Shown: positions 13,874 through 58,709 of the stretch, one piece after another
How the letters are laid out: each line of letters starts with the position of its first letter
Numbering within the stretch: position 1 is the first letter of the stretch
NCBI GenBank assembly: GCA_029569255.1
Contig: JAKQUO010000048.1
Span: 81,055 to 145,054, forward strand
DNA length: 64,000 bases
Reading direction: 5' to 3'
Source: Acidobacteriota bacterium
GTDB taxonomy: Bacteria; Acidobacteriota; Aminicenantia; Aminicenantales; Saccharicenantaceae
Notes under the pieces: generated by a model
The model's input: only the letters and a program-made list of their open reading frames with translations
Told to the model about the DNA's origin: nothing
Database searches by the model: none
Program-made: the position numbers and the translations under genes

Positions 13874-14107
13874 ATGAAAAAAGCGGCAGGGATCCTTGGC
13901 ATGGGATTGGCGGGCGCGTCGTTGCTGGCCTGGGTCGCGTCTTCGGCCGCCGGGGCTTCGCTCGAAGGCCCGCGCCGGGGAGGCGGCAGGAACAGGCCCG
14001 GGAATCCGACCTACTCGGTCGCCGAGCCCGCCTCGGTCGCCCTTCTCGGGGCCGGGCTGGTCGTCCTGGGCCTCTACGCCAAGAAGAAGAACGGCAAGAA
14101 GAGCTGA
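13874..14107 (+). CDS. Small PEP-CTERM sorting-domain protein
   Basis: Signal peptide; C-terminus AEPASVALLGAGLVVLGLYAKKKNGKKS = PEP-like motif + TM + basic tail. Confidence 0.75.
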   Translation: MKKAAGILGMGLAGASLLAWVASSAAGASLEGPRRGGGRNRPGNPTYSVAEPASVALLGAGLVVLGLYAKKKNGKKS

Positions 14108-14281: not shown

Positions 14282-15874
14282 ATGAGCAAACCGAGAACCC
14301 TGTCCTTTCTCGTCCTCGGGCTGGCCGTCCTGGCCCTGTCGTTCCCGCCGCCCTCCCCGGCGCCGGGCGCCCCGGCGGACGCGCCTCCCGGCTTCGACTC
14401 GTGCACGAGCATCCTGGTCGGGCGGGGGGCCTCCGTCGACGGCTCGACCATGACCTCCCACTCGTGCGATTCCGGGACCGACCGGACCTGGATGGCCATC
14501 GTCCCCAACGCCCGGCACAAGCCGGGGGAGACGGCCAAGGTCTATCACGAGTCCAAGCGGACCAAGGGCCCCAACGACCCCGACCGCCTGGAGACGGGCG
14601 AGATCCCCCAGGTGGCCGAGACCTACGCCTACCTCGACGCCGCCTACCCGATCATGAACGAGCACCAGCTGGCCATCGGCGAGACGACCATCGGCAGCCG
14701 CCGCGAGCTCGTGAGCGACAAGGGCCTCATCGACGCGCCCGAGCTCTACCGCCTGGTCCTCGAGCGGGCCCGGACGGCCCGCGAGGCCATCCGCGTCGCC
14801 GACGAGCTGACCAGGGCCCACGGCTACAACGACTGGGGCGAGTGCCTCACCTTCGCCGACCCCAGGGAGGTCTGGCACTTCGAGATCCACGGCCCGGGCA
14901 AGGGCCGGATCGGGGCGGTCTGGGCGGCCCAGCGCGTCCCCGACGACGAGATCGGCGTCTCGGCCAACGCCGGGCGCATCCGCGAGATCGACCTGGCCAA
15001 CCCCGAGTTCTTCATGGCCTCGGGGAACGTCCACGCGCTGGCCGAGGAGATGGGCTTCTGGTCCAAGGCGAGCGGAAAGCCCTTCGAGTTCTGCTATGCC
15101 TACAATCCGGACTCCCGGACGAGCCTGTACTGCCGCCGACGCGAGTGGCGGGTGCTGAGCCTGCTCGCCCCCTCGCTCCGGCTCAATCCCGAGTCCGAGA
15201 ATTTCCCCTTCTCGGTCAAGCCCGAGAAGAAGGTCGGCGTCGCCGACGTCCTGGCCATCTTCCGCGACACCTACGCCGGGACCGAGTACGACATGACCCG
15301 GACGCTGACCGCGGTCAACCGCAAGGGGGAGACGGTCAAGAGCCCCGTGGCGACGCCGTTCATGAACGCCGACACGCTGGCCCTCTTCCGCCTGAAGCGG
15401 GAGCGGACGATCTGCTCGCCGGCCGCGACCTACCTCCAGGTCACCCAGTCGCGCGAGGGGCTGCCCGGCCCGATCGGCGGCGTCGTCTGGCTCGGCTACG
15501 ACAACCCGGCCGCGACGCCCCACGTGCCCATCTACATCGGCATCGCCCAAATGCCGGCCTCTTACATGGTCGACGGCCGCTGGGCCTTCAGCCGGGACTG
15601 CGCCTGGTGGGCCTTCCGGACCGTCAGCCGGCTGGCCAACTTCCGCTGGCAGGAGATGTCGCAGGACGTCCAGAAGGTCTGGAAGGGGATCGAGGACAAG
15701 GCCTTCGCCGGCCAGGCCGCGTTCGAGGCGGAGGCCCTGGCCCTCTACAAGAAGGACCCCCGCAAGGCCCGCGACCTCCTGACGAAATACTCGCACGACC
15801 TGGCCAACGGCGCCGTCGCCGCCTACTGGAAGCTCCTCGACGACCTCTGGCTCAAGTACTCCGGGTCCTTCTGA
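14282..15874 (+). CDS. C69-family dipeptidase-like protein
   Basis: Signal peptide, then DSCTSILVGRGASVDGSTMTSHSCDSG; stop overlaps the ATG of the adjacent REP-A (TGATG). Confidence 0.8.
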   Translation: MSKPRTLSFLVLGLAVLALSFPPPSPAPGAPADAPPGFDSCTSILVGRGASVDGSTMTSHSCDSGTDRTWMAIVPNARHKPGETAKVYHESKRTKGPNDPDRLETGEIPQVAETYAYLDAAYPIMNEHQLAIGETTIGSRRELVSDKGLIDAPELYRLVLERARTAREAIRVADELTRAHGYNDWGECLTFADPREVWHFEIHGPGKGRIGAVWAAQRVPDDEIGVSANAGRIREIDLANPEFFMASGNVHALAEEMGFWSKASGKPFEFCYAYNPDSRTSLYCRRREWRVLSLLAPSLRLNPESENFPFSVKPEKKVGVADVLAIFRDTYAGTEYDMTRTLTAVNRKGETVKSPVATPFMNADTLALFRLKRERTICSPAATYLQVTQSREGLPGPIGGVVWLGYDNPAATPHVPIYIGIAQMPASYMVDGRWAFSRDCAWWAFRTVSRLANFRWQEMSQDVQKVWKGIEDKAFAGQAAFEAEALALYKKDPRKARDLLTKYSHDLANGAVAAYWKLLDDLWLKYSGSF

Positions 15875-15898
15875 TGGGGGACATGATACCCGTTTCCC
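15874..15898 (+). repeat. REP-A, left arm (REPIN 1)
   Basis: ATGGGGGACATGATACCCGTTTCCC; inverted partner at 15951-15975. Confidence 0.9.
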
Positions 15899-15950
15899 CA
15901 TTTCGGGCGGATCTGATGCCGCGTGGCGAACGGACAGTAGAGAAGGAATA

Positions 15951-15975
15951 GGGAAACGGGTATCGTGTCCCCCAT
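15951..15975 (-). repeat. REP-A, right arm (REPIN 1)
   Basis: GGGAAACGGGTATCGTGTCCCCCAT; contains the GTG start of the downstream symporter. Confidence 0.9.
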
Positions 15976-18079
15976 TTTCGGGCTGCACCCGCTCGACTTC
16001 GCCATCGTCCTCGTTTTCGTCGCCGCCGTCCTGTGGCTCGGCTGGCGGGCCTCGCGCAAGACCAAGACGGCCGAGGACTTCTACGTCGCCGGCCGCCGCC
16101 TGGGCAAGTTCTACCAGTTCTTCCTCAACCTGGGCACCTCGACCAACGCCGACCAGGCCATCGTCGTCTCCCGCGAGGTCTACCGCCAGGGCGTCGGCGG
16201 GATGTGGATCCAGTACCTCGTCCTCTTCCTGACCCCCTTCTACTGGTTCACCACGGCCTTCTTCCGCCGCGTCCGCCTGGTCACCATCGGCGACTTCTTC
16301 ACGGAGCGGTTCAAGAGCCGGTTCCTCGGCGCGGCCTTCGCCGTCTTCACCCTGTTCATGGCCTTCCTCGGCAACGGCGTCGGCTACATGGTCGCGGCCA
16401 AGACGATGATGGCCCTGACGCCCAAGCCCGCCGCGCGCTACACCGTCGAGGAGCGCCGGGCCGTCGACCTCTTCGAGGAGTACCGGGCCCTCCGGGCCCG
16501 CTCCGAGCGCGGGGAGCTCGCCCCGGCCGAGTCGGCGCGCCTGGCCGAGCTCGTCGAGCGGGAGAAGAAGGGCGAGCTGCGGGCCTTCGTCTCCTACACG
16601 GACGCGGTCTCGATCTACCTCGTCTACACGGTCATCGTGGCCGTCTACACGATGATGGGCGGCTTCCTGGCCGCGGCCATCACCGACGTCATCCAGGGGT
16701 TCCTGCTGACGGCCTTCTCGCTCCTGCTCATCCCCATCGCCCTCCACCGCGTCGGCGGGTTCGCCGGGCTCCACGCCGCCGTCCCCGATTTCATGTTCAA
16801 GCTCTTCGGCTCGGCGGCGACGAGCGAGTACGCCTGGTACACCATCCTGGCCATGGCCCTGGCGAACCTCGTCTCCATCATCGCCGTGGCCACCGGCATG
16901 CAGACGGCCGGCTCGGCCAGGAACGAGATGACCGCCCGGGTCGGCATGATCGGGGGCATGTTCTTCAAGCGCGTCATCATGATCTTCTGGGCCCTGACCG
17001 GCCTCCTGGCCATCGCCCTCTACGCCGGCCGGCTCCACGATCCCGACCTCATCTGGGGCCGCATGACCATGGACCTGCTCTTCCCCGGCGCCATCGGCCT
17101 GATGATGGCCGGGATCCTCTCGGCCAAGATGTCCAGCCTGGCCGGGTCGAGCGTCTCCTACTCGGCCCTCTTCATCCGCAACCTCTACCAGCCCTTCGTC
17201 AAGCCCAAGTCGGACCGCCACCTGATCCGGGTCGGGCGGGCCGCCATCGGCGCGACCCTGCTCGGCGGCGTGGGCGCGGCCCTGTTCATCGGCAACCTGC
17301 TCGACTTGTTCAAGTACTTCATCTCCCTGCCGGCCATCTTCGGCGCGGCCATCTGGCTGGGCTTCCTGTGGCGCCGCGTGACCCGGGCCGCGGTCATCGC
17401 CCAGGTCGTCGTCTGCTTCGCCGTCTACGCCCTCGTCCCCAACGTCTTCCAGTCGCTCGAGTGGGCCCGGACGCGGCCCTCGTTCCTGCGGGAAACGCGG
17501 GCCCGGATCGTCAACATCACCACCCGGGCCGTCGAGGAGGACGTCGCGGCGGGGCGCGCGGCCGCGGTCGGGGAGGTCATCCGCAAGGAGCACCGCAACC
17601 CGCCCGAGGGCATCTTCTACGAGAAGGTCGCCCGGAGCGACCCCCGGGACCCGGATTCGCCCAAGGTCGGGATCGGCCGGTTCCACGCCGAGCTCTGGAT
17701 CCTCGGCTGGTGCGGGGTCGATTTCACGGGCTTCTCCAAGGCCCAGCTGAGCGCCGTCCGCTTCGGCTTCGACGCTCTGTTCCCGTTCGTCCTGCTCTTC
17801 TTGCTGAGCGCCGTGACCCGGCCCGTGCCCAAGGCCGACCTCGACCGCTTCTTCGCCCGCGTCCACACGCCCGTCCAGCCGACGCCAGAGGAGGAGGAGC
17901 GGGCCCTGCGGCGCGCCGTCGAGCGCTACGAGGAGATCGAGTCGCGCAAGCTCAAGGCGGGGTCGAACTGGGAGATCATGAAGCCTCGGCTAGTCGATGT
18001 CCTCGGCTTCGCCGGCTGCTGGGCCCTCGTCGGGGTCGTCGTCCTGCTCCTCTGGCTCGTGGTAAAATGGGGGACATGA
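15965..18079 (+). CDS. Sodium:solute symporter family protein
   Basis: AEDFYVAGRRLGKFYQFFLNLGTSTNADQAIV, multiple TM segments; start (MSPI) and stop (WGT*) lie in REP-A sequence. Confidence 0.85.
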   Translation: MSPIFGLHPLDFAIVLVFVAAVLWLGWRASRKTKTAEDFYVAGRRLGKFYQFFLNLGTSTNADQAIVVSREVYRQGVGGMWIQYLVLFLTPFYWFTTAFFRRVRLVTIGDFFTERFKSRFLGAAFAVFTLFMAFLGNGVGYMVAAKTMMALTPKPAARYTVEERRAVDLFEEYRALRARSERGELAPAESARLAELVEREKKGELRAFVSYTDAVSIYLVYTVIVAVYTMMGGFLAAAITDVIQGFLLTAFSLLLIPIALHRVGGFAGLHAAVPDFMFKLFGSAATSEYAWYTILAMALANLVSIIAVATGMQTAGSARNEMTARVGMIGGMFFKRVIMIFWALTGLLAIALYAGRLHDPDLIWGRMTMDLLFPGAIGLMMAGILSAKMSSLAGSSVSYSALFIRNLYQPFVKPKSDRHLIRVGRAAIGATLLGGVGAALFIGNLLDLFKYFISLPAIFGAAIWLGFLWRRVTRAAVIAQVVVCFAVYALVPNVFQSLEWARTRPSFLRETRARIVNITTRAVEEDVAAGRAAAVGEVIRKEHRNPPEGIFYEKVARSDPRDPDSPKVGIGRFHAELWILGWCGVDFTGFSKAQLSAVRFGFDALFPFVLLFLLSAVTRPVPKADLDRFFARVHTPVQPTPEEEERALRRAVERYEEIESRKLKAGSNWEIMKPRLVDVLGFAGCWALVGVVVLLLWLVVKWGT

Positions 18080-18083
18080 TCCC
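18067..18083 (+). repeat. REP-A, left arm (partial/variant)
   Basis: ATGGGGGACATGATCCC; contains the symporter stop codon. Confidence 0.75.
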
Positions 18084-18141
18084 TTCGGGGACCGCGACGG
18101 ATTCCGTATTTCCTGGCCGCCCGGCCTATCAACGTGAGAGA

Positions 18142-18225
18142 GAAGAAGACGCGTTGGCGACGGTTGCCTCTTTGGATCAGGTGATGCGGACACCCGGGGA
18201 CGACAGCCCGCGCGAATCTCGGCAT
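18142..18225 (-). pseudogene. RAYT N-terminal remnant
   Basis: MPRFARAVVPGCPHHLIQRGNRRQRVFF matches the N-terminal HUH motif region of RAYT; no C-terminal domain; bracketed by inverted REP-A copies. Confidence 0.8.
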
Positions 18226-18290
18226 GATCGACCTCCTGCAATAGAGAGGACGATTGGAGCGGGGCGTTTTTTTTCAGCGGCGGAAAAATC

Positions 18291-18315
18291 AGGAAACAGG
18301 TATCATGTCCCCCAT
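18291..18315 (-). repeat. REP-A, right arm
   Basis: AGGAAACAGGTATCATGTCCCCCAT. Confidence 0.85.
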
Positions 18316-18337
18316 TCAGCGAAGGCCGGCGCTCTTG

Positions 18338-19378
18338 TCATGCTCCGCTCCTCTCCTCGAAGCGACCGGCCAGCTGGCCGCAGGCCGCAGCGATGTCGCT
18401 GCCCTTGGACAGCCGCACGGTCGTCCCGACCCTGCGCTCCTCGAGCCAGCGCTTGAAGCGCGAGAGGTCGGCGTCCGTCGGGGTCTTGAACTCGAGCCCC
18501 TCGACGGGGCTGTAGGCGATGAGGTTGACCTTGGCCCGGAGGCGCCGGGCGATCGCGGCCAGGCCGTCGGCGTCGTCGAGCGCATCGTTGAGGCCGGCGA
18601 GGAGACAGTATTCGAGTGTGATCATCCGGCCGCCCGAGCGGACGTAGCCCTCGGCCGCCCGGACGACCGCGTCGAGCGGGAAGCGCCGGTTGATGGGCAT
18701 GAGCCGGTCGCGGAGACGGTCGGTCACGGCGTGGATGGAGAGCGAGACGTTGATCTGGATATCGAGTGCGGAGAGCCGGGGGAAGGCGTCGGCGAATCCG
18801 GCCGTCGAGACGGTGATGCGCCGGGCCGCGACGGCCATGCCCTCGGGGGCGTTCATGATGCGGACGGCCTTCTCCACGTGGGCCCAGTTGTCGAGGGGCT
18901 CGCCCATGCCCATGAAGACGTAGTTGGTCGGCTCGCGGCCGAGCGCGGAACGGACATGGACGGCCTGGCCGACGATCTCGGACGGACGGAGGTCGCGCCG
19001 GAAGCCGCGGCGGCCGCTGGCGCAGAAGGCGCAGGCGAACTTGCAGCCGACCTGGGTCGAGAGGCAGACCGTCAGGCGGCGGCCGGCGGGGATGATCACG
19101 GTCTCGACGTGCTCGCCGTCGCCGAGCCGGAAGAGGAGCTTGGTCGTGCCGTCTCCGGACGACCGCGTGTCGGCGACCTCGAGCCCGGCGAACGTGAACC
19201 GCGCGGCGAGCCTCTCCCGGAGCGCCTTTCCCAAGGTCGTGATGGCCTCGAACGCCGCCGCCCGCTTCTTGTAGAGCCCCTCGAAGATCTGGACCGCCCG
19301 GTAGCGCCGTTCCCCGAGCTTCTCGAGCTCGTCCTGGAGCTCGCGAAGCGTCAGGTCGCGGACATCAATGGGGGACAT
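18338..19378 (-). CDS. rlmN: 23S rRNA (adenine(2503)-C(2))-methyltransferase RlmN
   Basis: CAFCASGRRGFRRDLRPSEIVGQ radical-SAM Cx3Cx2C, NYVFMGMGEPLDNW, ITVSTAGFADAFPRL; start codon lies in REP-A. Confidence 0.95.
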   Translation of the reverse strand: MSPIDVRDLTLRELQDELEKLGERRYRAVQIFEGLYKKRAAAFEAITTLGKALRERLAARFTFAGLEVADTRSSGDGTTKLLFRLGDGEHVETVIIPAGRRLTVCLSTQVGCKFACAFCASGRRGFRRDLRPSEIVGQAVHVRSALGREPTNYVFMGMGEPLDNWAHVEKAVRIMNAPEGMAVAARRITVSTAGFADAFPRLSALDIQINVSLSIHAVTDRLRDRLMPINRRFPLDAVVRAAEGYVRSGGRMITLEYCLLAGLNDALDDADGLAAIARRLRAKVNLIAYSPVEGLEFKTPTDADLSRFKRWLEERRVGTTVRLSKGSDIAAACGQLAGRFEERSGA

Positions 19379-19392
19379 GATACCTGTTACCC
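19368..19392 (+). repeat. REP-A, left arm (REPIN 2)
   Basis: ATGGGGGACATGATACCTGTTACCC; its complement provides the rlmN ATG. Confidence 0.9.
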
Positions 19393-19470
19393 GATTCTAT
19401 CACAGGTGAGGAGATCTCCGCCGGGGGTCCGCCGGGGGTCTCCCTCCGCGCCGCGGGCGCTTCGGAAATG

Positions 19471-19495
19471 GGGAAACGGGTATCATGTCCCCCAT
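19471..19495 (-). repeat. REP-A, right arm (REPIN 2)
   Basis: GGGAAACGGGTATCATGTCCCCCAT; its complement provides the stop codon of the TrmA-like gene. Confidence 0.9.
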
Positions 19496-20766
19496 TTTAG
19501 GATCGCCAGGGTCTCGATGTGGGGGGTGTGGGGGAAGAAGTCGTAGACGCGGAGCGCCTCGAGCTCGTAGGCCCCGAGGAGCGCCTTCAGGTCGCGGGCC
19601 AGCGTCGCCGGGTTGCAGGACAGGTAGAGCAGCAGCGGCACGGGCGCGGCAACCAGCCCGGCGACGACCGCCGGCGCAAGGCCCCGCCGCGGCGGGTCGG
19701 CGACGACCACCCCCGGCCCCCGGCCCAGGATCTCCTCCAGCCACTCCTCGGCCGTCCCCTCGCAGACGGCGAAGTTGCCGACGCCGTTGAGGGCCAGGTT
19801 CCTCTTCAGGAAGCCGATGTTCCCCGGGTCCGGCTCGACGCCGAAGACCTCGCGGGCCCGCGCGGCCAGCGGGATCCCGAACGTCCCCACCCCGCAGTAG
19901 AGGTCGGCCACCGTCTCTCCGGCCCTCGCCGCGGCGGCCGCGGCGACGTCGTCGAAGACCCGCTCGAGGATGCCGACGTTGGCCTGGAAGAACGACCGGG
20001 CGCCGGCGCGGAAGGTCCGGCCGCCGACGGTCTCCTCGAGGAAGTCCCGGCCGAAGAGCCGCTCGTCCCGGCGGCGCTTGCCGTCGAAGACGGACGCGAC
20101 CGCCCCGGCCAGGGCGAGTTCCTTCCGCGCCCCGGCCAGGGCCTCGCCGAGAGCCGCCTTCTCCGCCTCCGAGGCCAGGTCGAGCGCGACGAGCGAGTCG
20201 CCGCGCGTCCGGCTGGTCCGAACCTCGATCGCCTCGACCGAGCGGAACGGCCCGGCCTCGATCGTCTCCCGCAGGCGGGCCAGCAGGCCGTTCACCCGCT
20301 CCGGGACGAGGTAGCAGCGGTCGACGGGCACGAACGAGGCCCGCTCGCCCGGCTCGTGATAGACGAGCTCGGCCCGCCCGGCCTCGCTCCACCGGACCCG
20401 GAGCCGGATCCGGTTCCGGTACCCCCAGCTCTCGGGCGAAGCCGTGACCGGCGGCGGGCCGCAAGGGCGCCGGAGCTCCCGGCCCATGATCTCCGCGACC
20501 TGGCCGCGCTTGACCTCGAGCTCGAGCCCGTCGTCCATGTCCTGGTAGGGGGAGCAGGCGAGGTAATGGCCGCACCTCGGCGCGACCCGCCGCGGCGAGG
20601 GCTCGACGACCGCCACGGTCCGCGCCTCGGCGTAGCTCCTCCTGTCCCTGACGACCTCGACCTCGACCGTCTCCCCGGGCAGGCCGGCGTCGGTGAAGAC
20701 GACCTTGCCGCCGGCGAGCCCCAGCCGCCGGCCCGGGTAGACGATCTTGTCGACGCGGATCCGCAT
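19483..20766 (-). CDS. TrmA/RumA-family RNA (uracil-5-)-methyltransferase
   Basis: TRAM-like N-terminus, VADLYCGVGTFGIPLA, VVADPPRRGL, LLYLSCNPATLARDL; ends ...ETLAILK-WGT*. Confidence 0.9.
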   Translation of the reverse strand: MRIRVDKIVYPGRRLGLAGGKVVFTDAGLPGETVEVEVVRDRRSYAEARTVAVVEPSPRRVAPRCGHYLACSPYQDMDDGLELEVKRGQVAEIMGRELRRPCGPPPVTASPESWGYRNRIRLRVRWSEAGRAELVYHEPGERASFVPVDRCYLVPERVNGLLARLRETIEAGPFRSVEAIEVRTSRTRGDSLVALDLASEAEKAALGEALAGARKELALAGAVASVFDGKRRRDERLFGRDFLEETVGGRTFRAGARSFFQANVGILERVFDDVAAAAAARAGETVADLYCGVGTFGIPLAARAREVFGVEPDPGNIGFLKRNLALNGVGNFAVCEGTAEEWLEEILGRGPGVVVADPPRRGLAPAVVAGLVAAPVPLLLYLSCNPATLARDLKALLGAYELEALRVYDFFPHTPHIETLAILKWGT

Positions 20767-20791
20767 GCGGCCGCTCTCTCGGCTCTCCGCC

Positions 20792-33701: not shown

Positions 33702-33734
33702 GAAAGGGGACACACACGGTGTGTGTCCCCTTTC
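33702..33734. repeat. REP-C hairpin, left flank of RAYT
   Basis: GAAAGGGGACACACACGGTGTGTGTCCCCTTTC, perfect palindrome about the central base. Confidence 0.92.
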
Positions 33735-33785
33735 CGATTTCAATGAGAATCCTCGATGAGAACGAGCGTCTATATAGATGCCCCC

Positions 33786-34391
33786 ATGCCCCGAACAGCC
33801 AGATTGGTCATCCCTGATGTGCCGCATCACATCATTCAGCGTGGAAACCGCAGGCAACCCGTGTTTTTTACGGATGAGGATAGGAAGTTCTATCTAACAC
33901 TGCTGCTCAAATGGAGTAACATAGCCCGGCTATCCATTTGGGCTTATTGCCTGATGGAGAACCACGTGCACTGCGTAGGCGTTCCGCATCTCCCGACAAG
34001 TCTGGTTATGACCTTTGCCCAAGTGCATAGGCGATACTCTTCCGTCATCAATAAGCGCTATGGCTGGCGGGGCTATCTCTGGCAGGGCCGGTTCCTTTCC
34101 TATCCGATGGACGAGGCCTATCTTTACAGGGGCATTCGTTATGTTGAATTGAATCCAGTCCGGGCGGGACTCGTACCAACGGCCGCAGATTATCCTTGGT
34201 CAAGCGCCCGGGCCCACATCTTCGGAGAGGAGAGCATGATCCTAGGCCGAAATCCTTTGGGAATGTCAGGCGTGGAATGGGCAAAATACCTTGCCGAAGG
34301 GAACCAAAAGGTCGAAGCCGAGGTCTTCAGAGAATGTGCTCGGTCTGAGCGGCCCTTGGGCGGCGAAGCTTTCCTGAAAAGGTTTAGATAA
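33786..34391 (+). CDS. REP-associated tyrosine transposase (RAYT, Y1/HUH)
   Basis: MPRTARLVIPDVPHHIIQRGNRRQPVFF; NHVHCVGVP; YVELNPVRAGLV; flanked on both sides by REP-C hairpins. Confidence 0.92.
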   Translation: MPRTARLVIPDVPHHIIQRGNRRQPVFFTDEDRKFYLTLLLKWSNIARLSIWAYCLMENHVHCVGVPHLPTSLVMTFAQVHRRYSSVINKRYGWRGYLWQGRFLSYPMDEAYLYRGIRYVELNPVRAGLVPTAADYPWSSARAHIFGEESMILGRNPLGMSGVEWAKYLAEGNQKVEAEVFRECARSERPLGGEAFLKRFR

Positions 34392-34416
34392 GGGGACACA
34401 CACCGTGTGTGTCCCC
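34392..34416. repeat. REP-C hairpin, right flank of RAYT
   Basis: GGGGACACACACCGTGTGTGTCCCC immediately after the RAYT TAA stop. Confidence 0.92.
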
Positions 34417-43372: not shown

Positions 43373-46300
43373 ATGGAAAAGACGCCGGGACAAGGAGCCC
43401 GGCCGCGGGCCGGGGCGCGGGCGCGGTTCGAGGCCTGGCTCGAGGCCCGGGCCGAGAACGTGCCGCGCGTCGCCTATCCGCCCGGGCTGCCCATCGCGGC
43501 CAAGGCCGCGGAGATCGTCGAGGCCCTGCGCTCGCCGCGCCGCCGCGTCCTCATCGTCGCGGGCGAGACCGGCTGCGGCAAGAGCACCCAGATCCCGAAG
43601 ATGTGCCTCGAGGCGGGGCGGGGCGTCCGCGGGCGCGTCGGCGTCACCCAGCCGCGCCGGATCGCGGCCGTGACCATCGCCCACCGCATCGCCGAGGAGC
43701 TGGGCGAGCCGCTGGGCCGGTCGGTCGGGTACAAGATCCGCTTCCAGGACCGGACGCACCGGGACAACTACGTCAAGGTCATGACCGACGGCATCCTGCT
43801 CGCCGAGACGCAGGGCGACCGCGGCCTCCACGAGTACGACACCATCGTCATCGACGAGGCCCACGAGCGCTCCCTCAACATCGACTTCCTGCTCGGCATC
43901 ATGCGCCGGCTCCTGGACGAGCGGCCGGACTTGAAGCTCGTCATCACCTCGGCCACGCTCGACACGGAGAAGTTCTCCAAGGCCTTCAAGAACGCGCCGG
44001 TCATCGAGGTCAGCGGGCGGATGTTCCCGGTCGAGGTCGAGTACCGCGTCCCCGGCGAGGAGGAGGCCGAGGACAGGGACTACGTCGGCCAGGCCGTCGA
44101 GGCCGTCGAGTACCTGCGGCGGGAGAAGCCGCCGGGCGACGCGCTGGTCTTCATGCCGACCGAGCAGGACATCCTGGAAACGTGCCGGATGCTGGAGGGG
44201 CGGAAGTGGCCGGCGGTCAAGGTGCTGCCGCTGTTCTCGAGGCTGCCGGCGGGGGAGCAGCGGCTCGTCTACACGGTCGCGCAGCCGAAGATCGTCGTGG
44301 CCACGAACGTCGCCGAGACGTCGCTGACCATCCCGGGGATCCGCTACGTGGTCGACACGGGCGTGGCGCGGATCGCCCGGTACCAGCCGGGGACGCGCAT
44401 CAACAGCCTGCCCATATCGCCCATCTCCCGGGCCTCGGCCGACCAGCGGAAGGGGCGGTGCGGGCGGGTCAAGGCGGGGCTGTGCGTCCGGCTCTACAGC
44501 GAGGACGATTACGAGAGGCGCGACGAGTTCACCTCGCCGGAGATCCTGCGGTCGGACCTGGCCGAGGTCGTCCTGAGGATGCTGGACCTCGGGCTGGGCG
44601 ACCCGCTCGAGTTCCCGTTCATCGACAGGCCGGCGGCCAAGGCCGTCCACGACGGCTACGACACGCTCGTCGAGCTCGGGGCGGTGCGGAAGACGGGGCG
44701 GGGGAGCGGCCCGGCCCCGGCCTCGAGGTGGGAGCTCACGGACAAGGGGCGAGCCATGGCCCGGATCCAGCTCGACCCGCGGATCTCGCGCATGCTGCTC
44801 GAGGCGGGCGAGGAACGCTGCCTCCCCGAGGTCGCGGTGCTGGCGGCGGCGCTGAGCATCCGCGACCCGAGGGAGCGGCCGCCGGAGAAGGCCCAGCAGG
44901 CCGACGCCGTCCACGCCGCGTTCAAGCACCCCGATTCCGACTTCCTGGTCCTGCTCAACATTTGGAATCGCTATCACGGCGATTTCGAGAAGCTCGGCTC
45001 GCTCGTCCAGAAGCGCCGCTTCTGCCGCGAGAACTTCCTGTCGTTCCCGCGCATGCGCGAGTGGACCTACCTCCACGCGGAGATCGGAAACGCCTTGAGA
45101 GAGCTGGAGATGGGTCAGGCGGCGGGGCGGGGAAGGAGGCCTCGTCGGGGCCGGGCCGTAGATAGGGGCCACGCGGAGAGAGAAGGGGGGAAGGGAAATA
45201 GGGAAATAGGTATTGTGTCCCCGATTTTGCACGCGGACATATCGCCGGCGCTTTACGGGGCCATCCACCGGTCCGTCCTCAGCGGCTATCTCTCGAACAT
45301 CGCCGTCCACAAAGAGAAGAACGCCTACGCGGGGGCCAAGAACCGCGAGCTCCTGCTCTGGCCCGGCTCGGTCCTGTGGGGCAAGGGCGCCGGCTGGATC
45401 GTCTCGACCGAGGTCGTCCGGACCTCGCGCCTCTTCGCCCGCACGGCCGCCCGCATCGACCCGGCCTGGCTCGAACGCCTCGGCGGCCCGCTCTGCAAGC
45501 GCTCCTACTCCGAAGCCGCCTGGGACCGGGCCCGCGGCGAGGTCACGGCCAAGGAGCGGGTCACGCTTTTCGGGCTGGAGATCGTCCGCGACCGCCGCGT
45601 CTCCTACGCCCGCGTCAACCCGGCCGAGGCCCACGGGATCTTCGTCATGAGCGGCCTCGTCGGTGGCGAGATCGACGACCCGCCGCCCTTCCTCGTCCAC
45701 AACCTGGCCCTCCAGCGCCGGGTCGAGGCGATGGAGGAGAAGCTTCGCCGCCGCGACATCCTCGTGGCCGAGACCGAGATCGCCAGGTTCTACTCGGAGA
45801 AGCTCCCCGGCATTCACGACGTGCGCTCGCTGCGCAAGCTCCTCCGCGACGTCGGCGACCGGGGCGGCGACGACGCGTTCCTGCGCCTCGAGGAGGAGGC
45901 CCTCCTCAACTATCGCCCGGAGGAGGGGACAGTCTCGGCCTTCCCGGACACGGTCGAGGTGTCCGGCCGCCCCTACCGCGCCGTCTACAGGTTCGCGCCG
46001 GGGGAGGAGGACGACGGCGTCACGCTGACCGTGCCGCCCGAGCTGCTGAGCGCCATCCCGCCGGACCGGCTCGAGTGGGGCGTCGCCGGGCAGTTCGCGG
46101 AGAAGATCGCCGCGCTCATCAAGGGCCTGCCCAAGCGCTACCGCAAGCTCCTCGTCCCGGTGGGGGAGAAGGCCGAGACGATCGCCCGCGAGATGCCCCG
46201 GGCGCCCGAGGAGACGCCGCTCTTCAAGGCCGTGGCCGAGTTCGTCAAGCGCCGCTTCGGGGTCGAGGTCCCGGCCCGCGAGTGGGCCTTGGCCGACGTG

Positions 46301-47575
46301 CCGCGCCACCTGCGCCTGCGCGTCGCCGTGACCGATCCCGCGACGGGGAGGGTCATCGACGCCGGGCGCGACGTCGAGCTGCTGCGGAAGAAGCTGGGCG
46401 CGGCCGACGAGGCGCCGTCCAAGGTCGAATCGCCGGCCTGGAAAGAGGCCCAGCGGACGTGGGAGAGGGACGGGATCGAGGAGTGGAGCTTCGGCGACTT
46501 GCCCGTGAAGGTCGCCGTCGGCACCTCGCTCACGGCCTACCCGGGGCTGAAAATGGGGGACATGATACCCGTTTCCCGGATTTCGGCCGGAGCCGGGGCC
46601 CCCGCGCCAGGCCCAACCGGGGGCGGGGCCGCGCCGGGCGCGACGGTCGCCGTGCGGCTTTTCCCGACCCGGGCCGAGGCCGAGGCGTCGCACAGGAAAG
46701 GCGTCCGGGCCCTTCTCATGCGCAAGTTCGCCAAGGAGCTGGCCTTCGTCCGGCGCTACCACAGGATCCCGGCCGAGCTCGACCGGGCGGCGCTCTTCTT
46801 CGGCGGCCGCGAGGCGGTCGAGGCGGCCATCGAGGAGGCCCTGGCCCGCGACGTCTTCGAGCGTGACATCCGGGCCCAGGCCGAATACAAGGCCTACGAG
46901 ACCGAGGTCGGCCGGACGCTCTTCGAAAAGGGCCACGCCCTGACCCAGACCGTCGTCAAGATCGTCGGGCTCAACGCCAGGCTGCGGGCCGGGCTCGCGG
47001 CGGCGGGCGGCGGGGGGAGCGGGGGAGGGGCCGGCGGGGCCGCCCCCAAGCTCAGCCTCTACGAGCTCAGCCGCCTCAAAGCCAAGGTCAAGCCCGAGTA
47101 CCTCGACGCCATCGCCGCCGACCTCGAACGCCTCGTCCCGCGCGACTTCCTCTCCGTCTATCCGCTCTCGCGCCTCGCCCGCGTCCCCCGCTACCTCGAG
47201 GGGCTCGAGATCCGCCTCGGCCGGGCCCGCGTCGATCCCGACAAGGACAGGGCCAAGGCCGCCCAGCTCGAGCGCTACGCCTTCGAGCTCGCCCGCCTCG
47301 AGGCCGACCTGGCCAAGAGAACGGGGGCACGATCTTCATTGCCCGGCTCCGGGCCGCGCTCGACGGCGAGCGAGACGGGGCGCGCTTCTTTCCCTCCGAA
47401 TAGGGAAATAGGTATCATGTCCCCCATTTCGGCCGCGGTCGACGAGCTGCGCTGGATGCTCGAGGAGTTCAAGCTCTCGCTCTTCGCGCCCGAGATCAGG
47501 ACCGCCTTTCCCATCTCGGCCGTCCGCCTGGCCCGCAAGATCGCCGAGATCGACGCGCTTCAAATCGTCGCGTAA
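43373..47575 (+). CDS. hrpA: ATP-dependent RNA helicase HrpA-like, with three in-frame REP-A insertions
   Basis: GETGCGKSTQIPKMCLEAG, DEAH, TNVAETSLTIPGIRYVVDTG, QRKGRCGRVKAG; C-terminal HrpA domain. REP-A-encoded peptides REIGIVSPI, MGDMIPVS and REIGIMSPI are embedded. Confidence 0.92.
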   Translation: MEKTPGQGARPRAGARARFEAWLEARAENVPRVAYPPGLPIAAKAAEIVEALRSPRRRVLIVAGETGCGKSTQIPKMCLEAGRGVRGRVGVTQPRRIAAVTIAHRIAEELGEPLGRSVGYKIRFQDRTHRDNYVKVMTDGILLAETQGDRGLHEYDTIVIDEAHERSLNIDFLLGIMRRLLDERPDLKLVITSATLDTEKFSKAFKNAPVIEVSGRMFPVEVEYRVPGEEEAEDRDYVGQAVEAVEYLRREKPPGDALVFMPTEQDILETCRMLEGRKWPAVKVLPLFSRLPAGEQRLVYTVAQPKIVVATNVAETSLTIPGIRYVVDTGVARIARYQPGTRINSLPISPISRASADQRKGRCGRVKAGLCVRLYSEDDYERRDEFTSPEILRSDLAEVVLRMLDLGLGDPLEFPFIDRPAAKAVHDGYDTLVELGAVRKTGRGSGPAPASRWELTDKGRAMARIQLDPRISRMLLEAGEERCLPEVAVLAAALSIRDPRERPPEKAQQADAVHAAFKHPDSDFLVLLNIWNRYHGDFEKLGSLVQKRRFCRENFLSFPRMREWTYLHAEIGNALRELEMGQAAGRGRRPRRGRAVDRGHAEREGGKGNREIGIVSPILHADISPALYGAIHRSVLSGYLSNIAVHKEKNAYAGAKNRELLLWPGSVLWGKGAGWIVSTEVVRTSRLFARTAARIDPAWLERLGGPLCKRSYSEAAWDRARGEVTAKERVTLFGLEIVRDRRVSYARVNPAEAHGIFVMSGLVGGEIDDPPPFLVHNLALQRRVEAMEEKLRRRDILVAETEIARFYSEKLPGIHDVRSLRKLLRDVGDRGGDDAFLRLEEEALLNYRPEEGTVSAFPDTVEVSGRPYRAVYRFAPGEEDDGVTLTVPPELLSAIPPDRLEWGVAGQFAEKIAALIKGLPKRYRKLLVPVGEKAETIAREMPRAPEETPLFKAVAEFVKRRFGVEVPAREWALADVPRHLRLRVAVTDPATGRVIDAGRDVELLRKKLGAADEAPSKVESPAWKEAQRTWERDGIEEWSFGDLPVKVAVGTSLTAYPGLKMGDMIPVSRISAGAGAPAPGPTGGGAAPGATVAVRLFPTRAEAEASHRKGVRALLMRKFAKELAFVRRYHRIPAELDRAALFFGGREAVEAAIEEALARDVFERDIRAQAEYKAYETEVGRTLFEKGHALTQTVVKIVGLNARLRAGLAAAGGGGSGGGAGGAAPKLSLYELSRLKAKVKPEYLDAIAADLERLVPRDFLSVYPLSRLARVPRYLEGLEIRLGRARVDPDKDRAKAAQLERYAFELARLEADLAKRTGARSSLPGSGPRSTASETGRASFPPNREIGIMSPISAAVDELRWMLEEFKLSLFAPEIRTAFPISAVRLARKIAEIDALQIVA
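45201..45225 (-). repeat. REP-A inside hrpA (copy a)
   Basis: GGGAAATAGGTATTGTGTCCCCGAT, translated in frame as REIGIVSP(I). Confidence 0.85.
46553..46577 (+). repeat. REP-A inside hrpA (copy b)
   Basis: ATGGGGGACATGATACCCGTTTCCC, translated in frame as MGDMIPVS. Confidence 0.92.
47403..47427 (-). repeat. REP-A inside hrpA (copy c)
   Basis: GGGAAATAGGTATCATGTCCCCCAT, translated in frame as REIGIMSP(I). Confidence 0.92.
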
Positions 47576-57533: not shown

Positions 57534-57629
57534 AAAGGGGGACATGATACCTATTTCCCTATTAACGACGCTGCCGGCTGCCCGGATACAACCAGAGAAA
57601 TTGGGAAACGGGTATCATGTCCCCCTTTT
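57534..57629. repeat. REP-A inverted pair (REPIN 4)
   Basis: AAAGGGGGACATGATACCTATTTCCC and GGGAAACGGGTATCATGTCCCCCTTTT. Confidence 0.9.
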
Positions 57630-58022: not shown

Positions 58023-58709
58023 ATGGCCAGATTAGCCCGTTGCACTGTCGCCGGCTACCCGCATCATGTCATGCAGCGAGGAAATTGCGAGCAACGGGTC
58101 TTTGAAGAAGAGGCCGACTATCGGCACTATCTTGATCTTCTTAAAGAGTGCTCGTCTCGATATCAGGTGGATATCTGGGCCTACTGCCTGATGCCGAATC
58201 ATGTCCACCTCATCTGCGTCCCCAAGAGCGGCGAAGGGTTGGCCCGAGCCAGCAACACACTGCATATGCGCTTCGCCCAGCACTTCAATAGCCGACGCTC
58301 ACTGCAGGGCCATCTCTGGCGGGCCCGATTCATGTCTTGCGTCCTGGATGAAGCCTGCGCCCTGGAAGAGATCCGTTTCGTCGAAAACAATCCTGTCCGC
58401 GCCGGTCGAGTCGCTTTGGCTGAAGAGTATCGCTGGTCAAGTGCCAGGGCCCATGTCCTGGGCGGATCCGATCCTGTCCTGTGTGATGGCTTTGCCCTGG
58501 CCCGAGAGATCGGCGACTGGCGCACTTACCTCCGAAGCCCCGGTGACCCGGCCCGGCTCCTTCTGGTCCGATCCTGCCTCAAGACGGGCCGTCCAGCCGG
58601 ACGGGTCGAATTCGTCCGCCAGCTCGAAAGCATCCTCGGCCGTCGTCTCAAAGCCTTGCCGCGGGGAAGACCCCGGAAAACAACCCGGATTCGATATCAA
58701 GATCGATAG
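58023..58709 (+). CDS. REP-associated tyrosine transposase (RAYT)
   Basis: [70 protein letters not shown]. Confidence 0.92.

Follow-up and report, generated by a model that had tools for sequence, protein, structure and literature searches.

The boundary between a family C69 peptidase gene and the sodium:solute symporter (SSF) gene downstream of it raises the question of how a gene begins when all of the sequence in front of it belongs to a repeat. In the window analyzed here (the whole 64,000-nt stretch of the studied genome, G000, of an uncultured bacterium), the junction between the two genes is a 102-bp inverted repeat, 15874-15975, whose arms are 93% complementary over 29 nt (15874-15902 and 15947-15975). 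The initial annotation had described an inverted pair of about 102 bp filling the entire intergenic region, with the peptidase stop codon overlapping its first base, and the coordinates bear out both statements: the A of the TGA at 15872-15874 is the first base of the left arm, ATGGGGGACATGATACC. It had further held that the symporter can start only at the GTG at 15965, within the right arm. This also stands, as the symporter frame contains a TAG at 15938-15940, after which GTG 15965 is the first ATG, GTG or TTG, and the next ATG (16202) is codon 80. The repeat very probably supplies the start codon of the symporter, whose closest relatives are found in Candidatus Aminicenantes (Acidobacteriota) MAGs. 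As donor of the peptidase stop the repeat was rejected: the peptidase C-terminus has the same length in repeat-free orthologues, so the stop is at its native position and is merely overlapped. Upstream of the peptidase gene, a short ORF (13874-14107) has a PEP-CTERM-like tail, VAEPASVALLGAGLVVLGLYAKKKNGKKS, at its end.

Table 1. Features of the junction, of related repeats and of genes with predicted starts in repeat arms (window positions unless prefixed)
Feature	Position	Strand	Remarks
Peptidase family C69 gene	14282..15874	+	Pfam PF03577, E 2.8e-69; native TGA 15872-15874 overlaps first base of repeat
Left arm of junction inverted repeat	15874..15904	+	
Spacer between junction arms	15905..15946	.	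Varies among congeners with repeat here
Right arm of junction inverted repeat	15947..15975	-	
Symporter GTG start codon in right arm (start from arm)	15965..15967	+	MSPI-FGL; use predicted from frame and homology
Sodium:solute symporter (SSF) gene	15965..18079	+	Pfam PF00474; start and stop codons both in repeat arms
Second family element	18066..18316	.	Symporter stop TGA 18077-18079; RAYT-like transposase N-terminal fragment
Third family element	19367..19496	.	rlmN ATG 19376-19378 (MSPI-DVRDL); uracil-5-methyltransferase TGA 19483-19485 (LKWGT*)
Start from arm, rlmN	19378		Native starts a few codons further upstream
Start from arm, FMN-reductase-like gene	C17:36477		MSPIKKKKK
Start from arm, HAD hydrolase	C27:40631		MSPIFAVIFDLDGTL
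Start from arm, aminotransferase-like gene (by eye)	C17:320210		MSPFDRIID; no Pfam match for 80 residues searched
Single arm in hrpA ORF, GGGGACACAATACC variant	45196..45228	-	NREIGIVSPI; similar insert in G003, none in G004
Single arm in hrpA ORF	46550..46583	+	In frame: KMGDMIPVSRIS
Single arm in hrpA ORF	47399..47429	-	In frame: NREIGIMSPIS; absent from G003
Intact repeat-transposase-repeat unit, sister family	33706..34416	+	Palindromes 33706-33730 and 34392-34416; Y1 ORF 33756-34391
Inverted pair of same family	57535..57627	.	About 400 bp upstream of Y1 transposase gene
Y1 (RAYT-like) transposase gene, candidate mobiliser	58023..58709	+	228 aa; PF01797, E 1e-10

The junction with and without the repeat

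Alignment of orthologous loci, obtained from a search of 60 relatives (genomes labelled G001-G012), has the outcome predicted in the initial annotation and reveals that the native symporter start is absent from G000 and present in the repeat-free G004, G005, G006 and G008. In G006 (TTCTAAATTGACGATCTTC), G004 (TTCTAAGTTGACG) and G008 (TTTTAGTAATGTCC) the peptidase stop is followed after 1-2 nt by a TTG or ATG start and ACG/TCC-ATC; the G005 junction is likewise repeat-free with a native start, but has an assembly gap just upstream. The native N-terminus of the orthologous symporters reads M-T-I/V-F-G-L, and in the search of 60 relatives homology to the symporter begins at residue 3 or 4, directly after the arm. 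Because the repeat-free orthologues start natively 1-2 nt after the peptidase stop, the repeat is judged to be an insertion, with the native symporter start lost in G000.

Among the junctions compared, this loss is confined to G000. A related repeat occupies the junction in G001, G002, G003, G007, G010 and G012, where the native ATG-AC start is kept just beyond the right edge, and in G011 a right arm stands ahead of the native ATG in a different context. Since six congeners with the repeat keep the native ATG, capture of the start appears derived and specific to the G000 species, and the insertion is probably older than the capture. Species differ in both spacer and arm variant at this junction, suggesting that arms have turned over or that repeats have re-inserted. 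In G001 (L089) the repeat has shrunk to a minimal palindrome, AAATGGGGGACATGTCCCCGAATT, apparently the product of an internal deletion.

Stop and start codons at other genes

The junction arms belong to a family with many copies. With up to two mismatches, the window has 14 copies of ATGGGGGACATGA where 1.07 would be expected, and the genome has 66 of GGGGACATGATACC as opposed to 4 of its reversed control; exact copies of TGGGGGACATGA number 33 in the genome and 0 for the reversed control. About 40 elements are present in G000, many of them inverted pairs of 70-284 bp in addition to single arms, and at least nine other genes appear to be ended or started by the same family.

Read inward, the arm gives AAA TGG GGG ACA TGA, and its A-rich edge often adds a TAA or TGA; an arm with this edge is able to close up to two of the three reading frames. 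Six genes end at the repeat's own TGA, mostly as KWGT*, namely the symporter, the uracil methyltransferase gene at 19483-20778 (identified by PF05958), IspG (GcpE), a hexapeptide acyltransferase, an HD-domain gene and C46:11963, and native C-terminal residues of the orthologues are missing in all six. The symporter itself ends KWGT* in G000, as opposed to a native NIR* in G002, G003 and G004.

Read outward, the arm is GGTATCATGTCCCCCAT, with an ATG (or GTG) and a Shine-Dalgarno-like AGG/GGG 4 nt upstream. The frame ATG TCC CCC ATT yields MSPI or MSPF, and the coding signal of five genes begins at the arm (Table 1). The Shine-Dalgarno duplex energy of the arm, -6.2 to -7.1 kcal/mol, is close to that of native genes (36 genes in the window have a median of -5.65). 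From frames and homology we infer that these starts are used. At C17:320210, the empty state is seen in G004 and G005, with the TGA of the upstream gene overlapping a native TTG start (TTGA; TTG AAA TAC GAT TTC GAC), and in G000 and G009 the gene starts from the arm as MSPFDRIIDRT. Similarly, the acyltransferase/HAD-hydrolase junction is a TGATG overlap without repeat in G008, and the HAD gene start lies inside a repeat arm in G000, G002, G003, G004, G005 and G012; in G004 and G005 a single 25-nt arm holds both the TAG of the upstream gene and, 3 nt from it, the ATG of the downstream gene. At two places, 19367-19496 (with rlmN, identified by PF21016/PF04055) and C27:40515-40647, a single element replaces boundary codons of two neighboring genes.

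Arms are also translated within proteins. The hrpA helicase ORF (43427-47575; DEAD, HA2, OB and DUF3418 domains) contains three single arms in frame, and its linkers vary among congeners, G003 and G002 having arms at some of these linkers and not at others. In two lipoprotein-like genes of G009 (loci L195 and L206), an arm is read as NRYHVPH close to the signal peptide.

Taken together, the peptidase/symporter junction is probably a non-autonomous, REPIN/MITE-like inverted repeat of TIR type that was inserted at a tight stop-start junction, an arm replacing the lost codons. The insertion, or a later small deletion, would remove the native stop or start and the arm would substitute for it, with the outcome that the upstream protein ends KWGT* or the downstream protein begins MSPI. 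At 15874-15975, the peptidase would keep its native stop and the symporter, its native ATG lost, would start at the GTG of the arm. The whole junction repeat folds far better than shuffles (z -7.4 as DNA; z -5.6 in RNA context), and in the mRNA the arm pair forms a long stem that rises from the peptidase stop and has GTG 15965 in its base. Symporter initiation would be expected to be coupled to peptidase translation: a ribosome terminating at 15872 would cover approximately 10 nt at the start of the left arm, which pair with the region of the GTG, and would open the base of the stem. The strong hairpin alone should hinder initiation at this GTG.

Position of the repeats and its possible meaning

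The expectation of the initial annotation that the repeats lie at gene ends throughout the genome is borne out, with repeat ends found at stop codons far above chance. Based on genes called with a home-made codon-usage caller trained on the window (5' ends are approximate), 20 of the 25 repeat ends that face a gene 3' end in G000, and 17 of 22 such ends in G009, lie from -13 to +6 nt from the stop, or 37 of 47 for the two pooled; the two genomes share some orthologous insertions, and the 47 ends are not fully independent. In an element-specific null, 20,000 simulations placed each element at a random position in the healed gap that it occupies, for gaps of at least 20 nt. Within 6 nt of a stop there are 19 of 26 ends against 2.6 expected, a number reached in 0 of the 20,000 simulations. 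In stretches of G002 and G003 that carry another arm variant, five of six intergenic 3'-facing ends follow the stop by 1-2 nt; the edge of the remaining one is duplicated. The idea that the stop triplet at the repeat edge is a target motif gained no support, its frequency being no higher than the column-composition prediction at either 3'- or 5'-facing ends.

This distribution could be the result of passive tolerance, whereby repeats insert anywhere and survive only at gene ends, the overlap with codons being a by-product without a role. Such an explanation competes only with a selected role and not with the anatomy of the repeat, and it has a considerable chance of being correct, if somewhat below even. 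The gaps are short where a gene 3' end flanks them (median 37.5 nt), the tails lost at KWGT* ends are small (about 3-14 residues), and the IspG domain is intact, its Pfam model being matched to the last position despite the repeat-derived stop. In addition, the A-rich edge alone explains the stop triplets at 5'-facing repeat ends (21 of 40, against a column-shuffle mean of 21.0). However, even in healed gaps of at least 60 nt, where 1.2 ends would be expected within 6 nt of the stop, 13 of 19 lie that close, and lack of room is thus insufficient as an explanation. Several stops, moreover, are at their native position with the repeat at or just after them (the C69 gene, C17:24255, C17:40014, C17:320085 and C41:23600).

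Alternatively, selection may maintain the hairpin, whose base holds a stop and whose right arm holds a start, as a device to couple or tune both genes, comparable to the E. coli REPs that lie within 15 nt of a stop codon. Consistent with selection, seven congeners have a repeat at the peptidase/symporter junction and six have one at the acyltransferase/HAD junction, with arm sequences that change, and lowered translation is attributed to stop-proximal REPs in E. coli (Liang et al. 2015, as cited in PMC12306157). Repeat-free congeners nevertheless manage without the repeat, and arm variants that differ between species fit re-insertion or gene conversion as well. A selected device is for the present unlikely. 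Slightly less likely again is its most far-reaching form, in which the repeat would be a portable stop-plus-start cassette, selected genus-wide as a translational coupling module whose start-hiding hairpin is opened by the terminating ribosome.

It is very improbable that the symporter starts at ATT 15974 or CTG 15983 and that the repeat supplies nothing. Both are possible non-standard starts, and native homology sets in with the codon that follows the arm. Starts at ATT are known but uncommon. The GTG is a standard start with a Shine-Dalgarno-like stretch upstream, and other, independent genes have the same MSPI frame with a standard ATG. An artefact of assembly or binning, by which repeats were misjoined in this metagenome-assembled 62-contig draft, is scarcely credible given that synteny of the window with three other genomes extends for approximately 45 kb and that independent assemblies carry repeats at the same junctions.

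If insertion with replacement of boundary codons is the correct reading, the orthologues offer before-and-after pictures of a selfish repeat that becomes hard to lose by taking start or stop codons, and this takeover may help explain the persistence of repeats at the same junctions. The KWGT* and MSPI termini would provide a recognizable signature for metaproteome searches, and starts inside repeats should not be automatically dismissed as misannotation.

Class, origin and relation to known elements

The initial annotation labelled the junction a REPIN composed of REPs, of which the inverted pair and the many copies are retained. As in REPINs, inverted units lie a short distance apart and have many genome copies; as in MITEs, the elements are short and non-coding, possess terminal inverted repeats and are present or absent at orthologous sites (empty in G004, G006, G008 and others). 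The classical REP hairpin was rejected for the individual arms: single arms fold no better than shuffles (z +0.49, -1.02 and -0.49; an imperfect 8-bp stem is possible), and neither a GTAG nor a CGTC tag is in the arm consensus, AAAATGGGGGACATGATACCYRTTTCCCNATTT. For these two reasons the best label appears to be TIR-type REPIN/MITE, and the elements resemble relatives of Y1-transposase elements. Variants with GGGGACAC fit the motif GGGGWSAS, and the main variant, GGGGACAT, departs from it at the last base. Inspection by eye of the sites compared shows no clean target-site duplication, a feature that Y1 elements would not be expected to produce.

Y1_Tnp is matched at four places in the genome, two of them in the window near related repeats (Table 1). 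Palindromes of a sister family, GGGGACACACAC(C/G)GTGTGTGTCCCC, flank one Y1 transposase ORF, the TAA of which touches the right palindrome, and this unit (33706-34416) is compact and apparently an intact mobile unit. The element at 18066-18316 encloses only the N-terminal ~41 codons of a RAYT-like transposase (minus strand, about 18103-18225), a fragment that was recognized by eye from MPRFARAVVPGCPHHLIQRGNRRQRVFF and resembles the copy at 33756; the fragment ORF has no Pfam match. A repeat-transposase-repeat unit that had undergone internal deletion would be expected to look like this; the intact flanked copy is of the sister repeat family. Tandem stubs of the repeat edge, such as TAATGGGGTAAAATGGGGGACATG, are found at L140, L141, L143, L154 (G009) and G003:C9 near 88533, and look as if newer repeats had entered the edges of older ones.

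That the repeat acts as gene punctuation, as first proposed, holds to the extent that several genes use its TGA or ATG; stop donation by repeats and REPs inside ORFs are already published. The passages of Di Nocera et al. (2013, PMC3733652) on GTAG REPs report that their termini often provide a TAG stop and that some lie inside ORFs, and many REPs at ORF N-termini are treated there as probably outside the true gene. Literature searches, mostly outside subscription journals, turned up no description of REPs or MITEs that donate start codons. What the present comparisons would add is start donation at several putative cases, with the lost native start evident from repeat-free orthologues, and the apparent replacement by one element of boundary codons of two neighboring genes at once.

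The TIR families of TIRtrons (TIRYT) are inverted repeats with GGGGWSAS around Y1 tyrosine transposases, dispersed singly and as dimers, and the acidobacterium Koribacter is among their hosts (PMC3733652). The elements studied here are similar in their single and dimer dispersal and, for the sister variants with GGGGACAC, in the motif, from which the main family departs at the last base; start donation is not described in the passages on TIRs. With REPs and REPINs associated with RAYT they share pairs of inverted units of ~30 nt close to gene 3' ends, but they are without the tag or a significant single-arm hairpin and appear to supply starts besides stops. Rickettsia palindromic elements (RPE) are mobile palindromes translated in frame inside proteins (PMC10969869), as the arms are in hrpA; their sequence is unrelated, and they are known for insertion inside ORFs, not for supplying boundary codons. 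Finally, E. coli REPs within 15 nt of the stop lower translation (Liang, Rudd and Deutscher 2015, as cited in PMC12306157) and likewise place a repeat hairpin directly after a stop. As characterized in that citation they act on the upstream gene, whereas here the putative downstream start is also within the hairpin.
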